Positions 19,493-24,445 of a stretch of 64,000 bases of DNA are shown here, piece after piece. The translations under genes and the position numbers were made by a program. The notes below the pieces were generated by a model that saw nothing but the letters and a program-made list of their open reading frames with translations, was not told the DNA's origin and did no database searches. Source of the stretch: Conexibacter woesei Iso977N (GTDB taxonomy: Bacteria > Actinomycetota > Thermoleophilia > Solirubrobacterales > Solirubrobacteraceae); NCBI RefSeq assembly GCF_000424625.1, contig NZ_AUKG01000004.1, forward strand, positions 62,001-126,000, given 5' to 3'. Each line of letters opens with the position of its first letter. Within the stretch, counting starts at the first letter, position 1.

Positions 19493-22093
19493 TCAGGCCA
19501 GGACGGAGCGGATCCGCTCCGCGGCGGCCGCCAGCGCGTCGTCGAGCTTCTCGGGATCGCGCCCGCCGGCCTGGGCCAGCGTCGGGCGTCCGCCACCGCC
19601 GCCGCCGACGACCTCGGCGGCGACCTTGACGAGGTCGCCGGCCTTCAGCCCGCGCTCGACCAGCGGCTGCGCGACCGACGCGACCAGCGCGACCTTGCCG
19701 TCGGTGACCGCACCGAGCACGATCGCGGCGTCGCCGATCGCGTTCTTGACGCGGTCGGTGGCGTCCAGCAGCGCCCTCGCGTCGCCGACCTCGACGCGCG
19801 AGGTCAGGACCTTGACGCCCTCGACGACCTCGGCCGCGTTGGCGAGCGCCGCCACGTCGACCGCGCCGTTGGCGCCGCCGCCCGACTGCGCCGCCTTCTG
19901 CGCGTCCTTCAGCGCCCTCTGAAGGTCGGCGACCTTCGCCGGGACCTGCTCGGGTGACGTGCGCAGCTCGCCCGCCGCCTCGCGGATCAGCGCGTCGTGG
20001 GAGCGCAGCAGCGTCACGGCCTCGGGGCCGGTGACCGCCTCGATGCGCCGGACGTTGCTCGCGCTCGAGCCCTCCGACACGATCTTGAACACGCCGATCT
20101 CCGCGGTCGCGCGCACGTGCGTGCCGCCGCACAGCTCGCGCGAGTACTCGCCCCCGCCGATCTGGACCATGCGGACGACGTCGCCGTACTTCTCGCCGAA
20201 CAGCGCCATGGCGCCCAGCTCGCGCGCCTCGTCCAAGGTGGTGGTGATCGGCCGGACCGGGTCGTTCTGCAGGACCCACGCGTTGACCTGGTCCTCGACC
20301 TCGCGCAGCTCCTCCGGCGACAGCCGGGTGCCGTGCGTGAAGTCGAAGCGCAGCTTGTCCGGACCGACGTAGGACCCCGCCTGGCGGACGTGCGTGCCGA
20401 GCGTCTGGCGCAGCGCCGCGTGCAGCAGGTGCGTCGCGGTGTGGTTGGCCTGCGTCGCGGTGCGCGCCGGGCGATCCACGCGCGCAAGCACGGTGTCGCC
20501 CGCCTTGAGCCCGTCGCCGACACCTTCGAGCGCGATCGCCTGGTCCTCGCCCGCGCGCAGCACCTCGCTGACCGTCGCGCGCGGCTCGCCGTCGGCGCTC
20601 AGGATCACGCCCTCGTCGCTGACCTGGCCGCCGCCCTGCGCGTAGAACGGCGACGCCGCGAGCTTGACGAACGTCCGCCCGCCCTGCTCCAGGACGCCCG
20701 CCACCGTCGTGCGCTCCTCCAGGTGCTCGTAGCCCGTGAAGTCGGTCGGCTCCTCGCTCAGCTGCCGGATGACCTCCTGGCGCGCGCCGACGCGCTCCTG
20801 CCCGCCCGCGCCCGCAGACGACCGCAGCCGCTGCTCCTCCATCAGCGCGTCGTAGCCCGCGATGTCGACGGGCACCTCGCGCTCGCCGGCGATCTCGGTC
20901 GTGAGGTCGATCGGGAAGCCGAACGTGTCATGCAGCTTGAACGCGTCCTCGCCGCTGACCTCGCCACGCCCGAGCAAGTCCTCCAACATGATCAGGCCGG
21001 TCTCCAGCGTGCGGCCGAAGCCCTGCTCCTCGGCCTGGGCCCAGCGCAGGATCGTGTCGCGCTCGCGGCCCAGCTCCGGGTACGCTGCGCCCATCGTCTC
21101 CTGGACCACGTCCACGTACTTGGTGAGGAACTCGCCCTCGAAGCCGAGCCTGTGACCCTGGGCGATCGCGCGGCGCATCAGGCGGCGCAGCACGTAGCCG
21201 CGGTCCTCGTTGGACGGCACGACGCCGTCGGCGATCAGGAACGTCATCCCGCGCGTGTGGTCGGCGAGGATGCGCAGCGCGCGATCGTCGTGCTTGCCCG
21301 ACGCCGTCAGCGACTGCCCGAGCTGCATCAGCGGGACGAACTGGTCGGTGTCGAAGACCGAGTCCACGCCCTGCTGGATCAAGGCCATGCGGTTGAGGCC
21401 CAGGCCCGTGTCGATGTTCTTCTTGGGCAGCGGCGTGAGCGTGTTGACCGGGTCCTGGTTGTACTGCATGAACACCAGGTTCCAGTACTCGAGGAAGCGC
21501 TCGTTCTCGCCGCCGGGCAGGTCGTCCTCGGTGCCCCACTCCAGGCCGCGGTCGTAGTACAGCTCCGAGCACGGGCCGCACGGCCCGGTCTCCCCCGCCT
21601 GCCAGAAGTTCTCGCTGCGCGGGCACGGGACGATCCGCTCGCGCGGCACGCCGATCGCCAGCCACGCCTCGACGGCCTCCTCGTCGAGGCCGAGGCCGAG
21701 CTCCTCGTCGCCCTCGAAGACCGTGACCCAGATCTTCTCCGGGTCGAAGCCGAAGCCGTTGAGCGACATGTCCCACGCGAACTCGGCGGCGCCCTGCTTG
21801 AAGTAGTCGCCCATCGAGAAGTTGCCGAGCATCTCGAAGAACGTGAGGTGGCGCGTGGTCGTGCCGACGACGTCGATGTCGGGCGTCCGGAAGCACTTCT
21901 GACACGACGTGAGCCGCGCGGCCGGCGGGGTCTCCAGGCCCTGGAAGTAGGGCTTGAGCGGGTGCATGCCCGCGGTGGTCAGGAGGACCGAGGGGTCGTA
22001 CGAGGCCGGGACCAGCGAAGCGCTCTGAAGGCGCTTGTGGCCCTGGCGCTCGAAGAACGACAGGTAGGACTCGCGGATCTCGTCGGACGTCAC
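19493..22093 (-). CDS. alaS: Alanyl-tRNA synthetase
   Basis: An 866-residue class II synthetase. Catalytic motif LTTAGMHPLKPYF is near residue 40, the editing-domain metal site HTATHLLHAAL and CGGTH are present, and a C-terminal glycine-rich C-Ala domain ends the protein. The GTG start overlaps the mnmA stop as GTGA; an ATG 18 bases upstream is the alternative. The adjoining ruvX and mltG genes follow the known actinobacterial order. Confidence 0.95.
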   Translation of the reverse strand: MTSDEIRESYLSFFERQGHKRLQSASLVPASYDPSVLLTTAGMHPLKPYFQGLETPPAARLTSCQKCFRTPDIDVVGTTTRHLTFFEMLGNFSMGDYFKQGAAEFAWDMSLNGFGFDPEKIWVTVFEGDEELGLGLDEEAVEAWLAIGVPRERIVPCPRSENFWQAGETGPCGPCSELYYDRGLEWGTEDDLPGGENERFLEYWNLVFMQYNQDPVNTLTPLPKKNIDTGLGLNRMALIQQGVDSVFDTDQFVPLMQLGQSLTASGKHDDRALRILADHTRGMTFLIADGVVPSNEDRGYVLRRLMRRAIAQGHRLGFEGEFLTKYVDVVQETMGAAYPELGRERDTILRWAQAEEQGFGRTLETGLIMLEDLLGRGEVSGEDAFKLHDTFGFPIDLTTEIAGEREVPVDIAGYDALMEEQRLRSSAGAGGQERVGARQEVIRQLSEEPTDFTGYEHLEERTTVAGVLEQGGRTFVKLAASPFYAQGGGQVSDEGVILSADGEPRATVSEVLRAGEDQAIALEGVGDGLKAGDTVLARVDRPARTATQANHTATHLLHAALRQTLGTHVRQAGSYVGPDKLRFDFTHGTRLSPEELREVEDQVNAWVLQNDPVRPITTTLDEARELGAMALFGEKYGDVVRMVQIGGGEYSRELCGGTHVRATAEIGVFKIVSEGSSASNVRRIEAVTGPEAVTLLRSHDALIREAAGELRTSPEQVPAKVADLQRALKDAQKAAQSGGGANGAVDVAALANAAEVVEGVKVLTSRVEVGDARALLDATDRVKNAIGDAAIVLGAVTDGKVALVASVAQPLVERGLKAGDLVKVAAEVVGGGGGGRPTLAQAGGRDPEKLDDALAAAAERIRSVLA

Positions 22094-23505
22094 GCTGCGA
22101 TCGTCGCACATCCCACGACGACATCCCCGCTCAGCAGCACGGCCGTCTGGCCTGGTGCGGGCGCCGAGAACGGCTCGTGGAGGCTGACGCTGCCGCTGGG
22201 TTCGAGCCGGCACGGGACGATGCGCGCGTGGTAGCGCAGGCGGACGCCGTCGACCGCGGCGGCGTCGCCGCCGTTGTGCAGCCGGATGCCGCGGAGGTTC
22301 ACGCTCGTCGTGTCGAGCGCCGCGCGCGGACCCAAGGTGATGGTGTTGCTCCTGGCGTCGGTGCGCAGGACGTAGAGCGGCTCGGGGCGCTGGACCGGCA
22401 GCCCGCGGCGCTGGCCGACCGTGTAGTGGAAGTGGCCGCGGTGCTCGCCGAGCGTCGCGCCGTCCTGGTCGAGCACCGCGCCGGGGCGCTCCTTCAAGCC
22501 GCCGTGCTTGGCCAGGAAGCGCTCGCGGCCGGTGCCGGCGATGAAGCAGAGGTCCTGCGAGTCGGCCTTGTCGGCGACGGGCAGCTCGTGCTCGCGCGCG
22601 AGCGCGCGGACCTCGGGCTTGGTCAGCTCGCCGAGCGGGAAGCGCAGGCGCTCCAGGGTCCTGCGCGACAGCGCGGCCAACATGTAGGTCTGGTCCTTGG
22701 CGTCGTCGGCGGCGGCGCGGAGGAGGTGGTCCGGCGTTTGGCGCGCGTAGTGGCCGGTCGCGAGGGTCTGCGCGCCGAGGCGGTCGGCGAAGTCGACCAT
22801 CGCGTCGAGCCGGACGTGGCCGTTGCAGCGGACGCACGGGTTGGGCGTGAGGCCCTCTGCATGCTCGTCGAGCCACGGGTCGACGACGCCGGCCCGGAAC
22901 GCGCGGCGCAGGTCGAGCGTGAAGTGCGGGAGGTCCATCTGGTGCGCGATCGCGCGCGCCTGGCGGACGGCGGAGGCGGAGCAGCACGACGCCTCCGCGT
23001 CGTTCTCGGGGTCGCGCCACAGCTCGAGCGTGACCGCGGCGACCTCGTCGTGCGTCGCGCGCTGGAGCACCGCGGCGACCGACGAGTCCACCCCGCCGGA
23101 CATCGCGACGAGCGCGCGGCCGTTGTTCAGCGCGCGCGGGTCGCTCGCCGCGACCGCGGCGCCGAGCGCCTGGTGCAGCGCGTCGGACGCCAGGTCGGCG
23201 GCGTGCAGCTTGCCGACGCTGAGGCCGCCGAGCGCCTCGCTCACACGGACCGAGCCGACGCGCGCGGCGTCGAAGACCGACTCACCGCGGACGAGGTCCA
23301 CGACCGCGCTGGCCGCCGCGGTCGCTGCGCCGCACCCGGACGCGTCGAAGCCGGCGTCGGTCACGCGCAGCTCGTCGACGGTCAGGCGGATCGTCACGAG
23401 ATCGCCGCACGCCGCGCCGCCGGCCGCGCCCGCGAAGGCGCCCGCGGGCTCATGCCCACGCCCCACGGGATGCTCCAGATGCTCGGCGAACCGCTCGTCA
23501 GCCAC
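22090..23505 (-). CDS. mnmA: IscU-like domain fused to tRNA 2-thiouridylase MnmA
   Basis: A 471-residue fusion. Residues 1-120 align with the IscU/NifU iron-sulphur scaffold: HPVGRG, ACGD with Cys33, and ASGCGAAT with Cys58. The third scaffold Cys is replaced: the IHCS-like site reads LHAAD with Ala102. Residues 130-471 are MnmA, with PP-loop SGGVDSS at 136-142, catalytic Cys in NPCVRCN and DLCFIAG, and the TGHYAR segment. MnmA makes 2-thiouridine at position 34 of tRNAs for Lys, Glu and Gln. The GTG start is inferred; the open frame runs further upstream into the divergent gene. Confidence 0.88.
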   Translation of the reverse strand: MADERFAEHLEHPVGRGHEPAGAFAGAAGGAACGDLVTIRLTVDELRVTDAGFDASGCGAATAAASAVVDLVRGESVFDAARVGSVRVSEALGGLSVGKLHAADLASDALHQALGAAVAASDPRALNNGRALVAMSGGVDSSVAAVLQRATHDEVAAVTLELWRDPENDAEASCCSASAVRQARAIAHQMDLPHFTLDLRRAFRAGVVDPWLDEHAEGLTPNPCVRCNGHVRLDAMVDFADRLGAQTLATGHYARQTPDHLLRAAADDAKDQTYMLAALSRRTLERLRFPLGELTKPEVRALAREHELPVADKADSQDLCFIAGTGRERFLAKHGGLKERPGAVLDQDGATLGEHRGHFHYTVGQRRGLPVQRPEPLYVLRTDARSNTITLGPRAALDTTSVNLRGIRLHNGGDAAAVDGVRLRYHARIVPCRLEPSGSVSLHEPFSAPAPGQTAVLLSGDVVVGCATIAA

Positions 23506-23614: not shown

Positions 23615-24445
23615 ATGCAGATCGCACTCGTTGCCGTCGTGCTGCTCGCCGGCATGTGGTTCACGGTGCTCAAGCCCAAGTCCGCGGACACCAGCTCGTC
23701 CGCGCCCGTCGCCCAGGCGACGACGCAGTCCTCGGAGCCCGTCGCCCCCGGCGTCAAGGGCCTGACGAGCGCCATCGACAAGGCCAAGGGCGCCGCGGCC
23801 ACGTCCGACGCGGCCAACGCCAAGATCCAGACGGCGACCGGCGGCAACGCCGCGACCGCCTCGACGAGCGCCCCGGCGTCGACCGCAAGCGCGACCGCGA
23901 CCGCCACGGCGGCCGCGAAGCGCACCACGGTCACCAAGAAGCCGGCGACCGCGACCGCGACCAGGAAGCCCGGCACCAAGGCGGCGACCGCCAAGGCCGT
24001 CGCGGCGAAGCCCGCGGCGACGAAGACCGTCACGAAGCCCGCCACGACCGCTCCGGCGGCGAAGACGACGACGCCCGCGAAGACCACGGCCGCCGCCAAG
24101 CCGGCCGTCGCGGTCGACCCGTCGGCCCGTCTCCTCGCCTACCTGGCGAAGGGCAAGACGCTGGTCATCCTCTTCTACGGCAGGGGCGCCGACGACAAGG
24201 CCGCCCGCAAGGCCGTCCACCAGACCGCGCAGGGCGACCCGAAGCACGTCGTGTCCGCCTACGTGCCGATCTCCAAGGTCGGCCAGTACGAGGCGATCAC
24301 GAGCGACGTCGACGTCCTCGCCGCCCCGACGATCCTCGTGATCTCGACGAAGGGCAAGGCGACGCCGCTGACCGGCTACGTCGATGCCGCCGTCGTCCGC
24401 AACGCCGTCTCCGCCGCTCGCACCGCGGCCGCTTCCGGCAAGTAG
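23615..24445 (+). CDS. Membrane-anchored Ala/Lys/Thr-rich protein, thioredoxin-like end
   Basis: A 276-residue protein. One N-terminal helix (IALVAVVLLAGMWFTVL) anchors it, then about 130 residues of low-complexity Ala, Lys, Thr and Pro form a wall-spanning-type linker. The last 100 residues have a thioredoxin-like pattern: LVILFYGRGADD after a first strand, and a cis-Pro-like AAPTILVIS, ending in a helix. The CxxC pair of thioredoxins is absent. Probable extracytoplasmic, non-redox role; function unknown. Confidence 0.75.
   Translation: MQIALVAVVLLAGMWFTVLKPKSADTSSSAPVAQATTQSSEPVAPGVKGLTSAIDKAKGAAATSDAANAKIQTATGGNAATASTSAPASTASATATATAAAKRTTVTKKPATATATRKPGTKAATAKAVAAKPAATKTVTKPATTAPAAKTTTPAKTTAAAKPAVAVDPSARLLAYLAKGKTLVILFYGRGADDKAARKAVHQTAQGDPKHVVSAYVPISKVGQYEAITSDVDVLAAPTILVISTKGKATPLTGYVDAAVVRNAVSAARTAAASGK

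Follow-up and report, generated by a model that had tools for sequence, protein, structure and literature searches.

An IscU-like domain lacking the third scaffold cysteine is fused to MnmA in Conexibacter woesei and other Actinomycetota

In Conexibacter woesei Iso977N, a single gene encodes MnmA together with an N-terminal domain of the IscU fold in which the third cysteine of the scaffold site has been lost. The gene lies in a 64,000-nucleotide stretch of contig NZ_AUKG01000004.1, referred to here as the window. The sequence predicts an MnmA-type tRNA 2-thiouridine synthase preceded by what was once an IscU-type scaffold. Each of the two parts is a member of a known family. No description of the fusion, of its spread, of its probably repeated origin, or of its remodelled site was found in the literature searched, in which subscription journals were thinly covered. 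The sulfur source of MnmA is openly disputed, with a persulfide relay and an Fe-S cluster as the competing proposals (PMC11784392). The reading that we favour, at a probability of roughly one half, is that the former scaffold now serves as a tethered module for docking and persulfide acceptance, from which MnmA receives its sulfur.

The fused gene and its two domains

The fused gene occupies 22090..23505 on the (-) strand and encodes 471 aa between a GTG start and a TGA stop. The start codon is the GTG at 23505. Close relatives carry ATG at the equivalent position (MADERF/MPDERF), which rules out a wrong translation start, including one after the IscU-like region as considered in an earlier sequence-only reading of this DNA. 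The TGA stop shares four bases, GTGA, with the GTG start of alaS (22090-22093, -), and an alaS-like frame is found nearby on the same strand at 25 of 31 f1 loci and all six f2 loci. Upstream of the fusion is a divergent gene (23616-24445, +) whose product seems to consist of an N-terminal membrane segment, a long Ala/Thr/Lys-rich stretch, and then a C-terminal part.

Residues 1-120 (23146..23505, -) form the IscU/NifU_N-fold domain. The Pfam model NifU_N (PF01592) matches residues 6-115 with an E value of 1e-20 and 74.6 bits against a cut-off of 22, so that the assignment of residues 1-120 to IscU/NifU in the sequence-only reading, which was to stand or fall with such a profile match, is confirmed. 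The protein falls below the cut-offs of more specific models, with 53.6 bits against 192.4 (TIGR01999) and 72.8 against 187.9 (TIGR03419) for the IscU/NifU equivalogs, and 37.9 against 92.5 for the SufU equivalog TIGR01994. A short linker (residues 121-127; 23125..23145, -) leads into the MnmA domain at residues 128-471 (22093..23124, -). NCBIfam and Pfam MnmA models cover residues 131-469 above their curated cut-offs, namely NF001138 (336.8 bits, cut-off 284), TIGR00420 (272.7, cut-off 236.95), and PF03054 (211.4, cut-off 20.6).

An AlphaFold2 model run with 65 related sequences is confident in both domains (mean pLDDT 95.9, pTM 0.93). Residues 2-120 resemble IscU structures, with a Z score of 21.5 to Archaeoglobus fulgidus IscU from the IscS-IscU complex (4eb5_C), and residues 127-471 resemble MnmA, with a Z score of 35.9 to 2hma. 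Between them the linker has little regular structure, preceded by a helix (97-119) and followed by a strand (127-134). Both NifU_N and MnmA were matched in 65 of 65 fused proteins scanned, with NifU_N matched by itself in every one. The open reading frame, the Pfam matches, the relatives, and the model together rule out a chance match.

The MnmA part shares with other MnmA (TrmU) proteins its fold, its catalytic Cys pair, and the PP-loop, which reads SGGVDSS here and is invariant as SGG.DS in the 65 proteins. Cys227 (22825..22827, -) corresponds to E. coli Cys102, and Cys320 (22546..22548, -) to E. coli Cys199, the proposed persulfide site. A complete MnmA with its catalytic pair intact follows the IscU-like domain in the same frame, as first suggested. 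The protein differs from E. coli MnmA in its N-terminal domain and in Cys224 (22834..22836, -), which stands at the E. coli Asp99 position and makes it a three-Cys type MnmA. All three cysteines are invariant among the 65 fused proteins.

Spread, neighbourhood, and origin of the fusion

A class-wide search with the window protein found a match in 290 of 299 genomes, and in well over a hundred of these matches both domains lie in one open frame. A survey of 396 genomes of the phylum added fusions in f23, f16, f55, and f73. The f23 proteins belong to Rubrobacter or close relatives, as a named contig of Rubrobacter, arranged in the same way, falls inside f23 in the MnmA tree; the single fused match among 80 contigs, mostly of other phyla, was also from Rubrobacter. 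The sequence-only reading had left the frequency of the fusion to a survey of Thermoleophilia. It proves to be the rule in this class, and it is also present in Rubrobacter as well as a second block of Actinomycetota. So many fused genes across class and phylum rule out a one-off fusion or an assembly artefact. Two f8 loci (L250, L251) encode MnmA without the IscU-like domain in a mostly fused family, likely through secondary loss.

In f6, f29, f51, and f67, nifS, iscU, and mnmA are separate neighbours. Contigs of Clostridium, Desulfosporosinus, and Lachnospiraceae (Bacillota) likewise have distinct adjacent genes for IscU, MnmA, and a NifS-type desulfurase. This suggests that the fusion joined genes that were already adjacent. 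Some f23 genomes retain the three separate genes while others have NifS and the fusion. The gene immediately upstream of the fusion is nifS in Rubrobacter, f10, and f11. Across most of the class, no desulfurase adjoins the fusion among the genes recognised. In a tree of the MnmA part the fused rows fall into two separate blocks, and a tree placing them in one clade is rejected (p-AU 1e-104). This speaks against a single origin of all fusions, although fission and loss complicate the count of events. The simplest reading of the sequences is probably more than one fusion plus losses.

Erosion of the scaffold site

Site residues are given in E. coli IscU numbering. In the window protein, Cys33 of the ACGD motif (23407..23409, -) is equivalent to IscU Cys37 and SufU Cys41, Asp35 (23401..23403, -) to Asp39, Cys58 of the GCGA motif (23332..23334, -) to Cys63, and His101 (23203..23205, -) to His105. 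Ala102 (23200..23202, -) occupies the position of Cys106. The sequence-only reading was correct that two cluster cysteines are kept and that the third has become Ala. Counting only cysteines, it overlooked two more residues of the classical site, Asp35 and His101. In free human ISCU2 the four equivalents of Cys33, Asp35, Cys58, and His101 coordinate Fe2+ (PMC11021402), so no ligand from MnmA is needed. The earlier proposal of a two-Cys site completed by MnmA residues draws on the two remaining cysteines and on the presence of MnmA in the same chain, but is highly improbable given this retained four-residue set.

With Ala at the Cys106 position, the window protein lacks both the complete assembly site (Cys37, Asp39, Cys63, His105, Cys106) and the final Cys of the SufU zinc ligand set (Cys, Asp, Cys, Cys). 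The residue equivalent to the SufU persulfide acceptor is present as Cys33. SufU accepts persulfide on Cys41 (PMC10216065), and in the human ISC complex it is accepted by Cys138, the equivalent of Cys106 (PMC11021402). The lost Cys is therefore the ISC acceptor, whereas the Cys that has been kept is the equivalent of the SufU acceptor (PMC10216065, PMC11021402).

The full five-residue site is found in none of 120 fused domains. Among separate partners outside f23 (Rubrobacter), 22 of 23 have it; the four separate f23 partners with readable ends all lack Cys106. The retention counts are descriptive and do not amount to a tested correlation, as the rows are related and only three independent fused/unfused pairs exist on supported branches. 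Among the 120 fused domains, 115 retain Cys37, 106 Cys63, 94 Asp39, and 76 His105, while the Cys106 position holds Ala in 72, Gly in 12, and Cys in 22. With these three pairs, no statistically significant association of fusion with loss of the site was obtained. Of the site residues, Cys37 persists most often, and it belongs to the best conserved positions of the whole domain, where its only equals are Gly or Ala; it is absent from three f16 members, one f34 member, and one f73 member. The third Cys is truly lost, and a changed use, as first suggested, is likely.

His105 and Cys106 occur together in no fused domain (n=120), and some lineages have neither. Families f1-f5 and f23 keep His105 and have lost Cys106. 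The reverse, as in SufU, holds in f10, f11, f55, f73, and part of f8. The exact ligand set of SufU (Cys, Asp, Cys, Cys; no His) is found in f10, f11, f55, and part of f8 and f73. The window lineage shares the acceptor Cys with SufU, the zinc-dependent sulfur acceptor of SufS, but differs in that its remaining ligand is His instead of the C-terminal Cys. Compared with the IscU/NifU_clost scaffold, the fused domain shares the NifU_N fold and family and, in relatives, the gene neighbourhood. It differs in the replaced Cys106, the missed equivalog cut-offs, an altered HscA-binding LPPVK motif, and its attachment to MnmA. In f9 and f12 little beyond Cys37 remains, and in f7 (L064-L069, L140, L248) MnmA carries a short N-terminal remnant. 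The hairpin and last helix of the remnant are kept, but the Cys63 and His105/Cys106 segments are deleted and there is no site Cys.

At four f23 loci (L115, L116, L142, L147) the IscU-like gene that separates nifS from mnmA is unfused and its product already lacks Cys106 (GKEHA), and in this family, judging from the sequences, loss of Cys106 may precede fusion. L111, L112, L139, and other f23 loci have an extra Cys three residues past Cys63 (GCAAC).

This erosion bears on two explanations in which the cysteines of the domain do not carry sulfur. The domain may be a decaying passenger that has no sulfur role and persists as a folding or tRNA-binding extension, consistent with its shrinkage in f7, its absence from some f8 genomes, and its near-loss in f34. 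This is improbable considering its long retention across the class, its conserved Cys and Asp, and a confident model with the fold intact. Alternatively, the domain may only dock, positioning a desulfurase or SufU so that persulfide passes straight to Cys320, its own cysteines being structural or metal-binding leftovers. The fold is kept despite site erosion in f9, f12, and f16, f7 works with a Cys-free mini-domain, and E. coli MnmA and IscS are reportedly enough for 2-thiouridine in vitro, going by the title of Kambampati and Lauhon 2003 (cited in PMC10067955). Docking alone does not account for the persistence of Cys37 in 115 of 120 domains, including some that have lost Asp39, Cys63, His105, and Cys106. 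It is the less likely account, though a possibility of some weight.

Sulfur supply and the role of the fused domain

In the genome carrying the window, SufS is the clear desulfurase. It adjoins a separate SufU that has its three Cys intact and passes TIGR01994 (97.1 against a cut-off of 92.5), and SufB/SufD-type proteins are present. With this separate machinery, the fused domain is unlikely to be the scaffold of the genome. Searches of the same genome for TusA and SufE gave no match, with positive controls, and no IscS/NifS-type desulfurase was found among the scored candidates. The same absence of a NifS/IscS-type enzyme applies to 27 of 28 f1-f4 genomes, this one included, with the best match to the NifS model at SufS level. 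NifS-type enzymes are present in f6, f8, and f9, and f7 has desulfurase matches at SufS level only. Three further SufS-like or desulfurase-like proteins (L102-L104) are encoded in the genome of the window.

The sequence-only reading proposed that the scaffold could hold either a cluster or a persulfide. The persulfide half is plausible given the retained Cys33, while the cluster half is disfavoured by the absence of a full site from all 120 domains. A related possibility is that an Fe-S cluster held or delivered by the domain fills the three-Cys site of MnmA, which would act as a [4Fe-4S] thiolase. Cys224, Cys227, and Cys320 are invariant, the ancestral neighbour was an intact IscU, and a [4Fe-4S] mechanism, reported for archaeal NcsA, is among the proposals for MnmA (PMC11784392, PMC10067955). 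However, the incomplete assembly site and altered LPPVK motif do not suit such a role, a further NifU_N protein is encoded in nearly every genome that has the fusion, and the Fe-S dependence of MnmA is itself disputed (PMC11784392). Cluster loading is accordingly doubtful, ranking only slightly above the decaying passenger.

In the persulfide relay that we favour, the IscU-like domain would dock on a cysteine desulfurase, which would be SufS in this genome and NifS where present. Cys33 would then play the part of SufU Cys41 and accept the persulfide, while Zn or Fe bound by Asp35, Cys58, and His101 would shape or position the loop, again by analogy with SufU. Sulfur would next move within the chain to Cys320, with Cys224/Cys227, in the active site of MnmA, where U34 of the tRNA would be thiolated. 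This reading is favoured by the two-domain architecture of 65 of 65 proteins, by the loss of the full site alongside the persistence of Cys37, and by the identity of Cys37 as the SufU acceptor, whereas Cys106 is that of ISC. The presence of SufS and SufU with no TusA, SufE, IscS, or NifS detected in the genome points the same way, as do the altered LPPVK motif and the occurrence of NifS directly upstream of the fusion or of nifS-iscU-mnmA neighbours.

Several observations count against the relay. Cys37 is missing from some f16, f34, and f73 members, L102-L104 could be the donor, and SufU could serve MnmA in trans. Few independent events underlie the association of fusion with site loss, and the unfused Rubrobacter partners lack Cys106 as well. 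In f7, SufS-level desulfurases and a Cys-free remnant indicate that an acceptor Cys attached to MnmA is dispensable in that family; as MnmA persists there without it, the relay may assist thiolation without being required for it.

A comparable arrangement is found in ThiI with a rhodanese-like domain, likewise a tRNA thiolase with a persulfide-accepting module in one chain, which differs from fused MnmA in its unrelated acceptor fold and its other target base, s4U8 (PMC10067955). More tentatively, a scaffold may have been converted into a metal-dependent persulfide carrier and welded to MnmA, probably more than once. The s2U34 route would then run from SufS through the IscU-like domain to MnmA without IscS or Tus, possibly with sulfur delivered onto a [4Fe-4S] cluster in the three-Cys site. 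The fusion suggests a route of tRNA thiolation for organisms that have SufS but no detectable IscS, TusA, or SufE. With both partners in one chain and lineages that keep different subsets of the ligands, it also provides a natural test of the sulfur route to MnmA.
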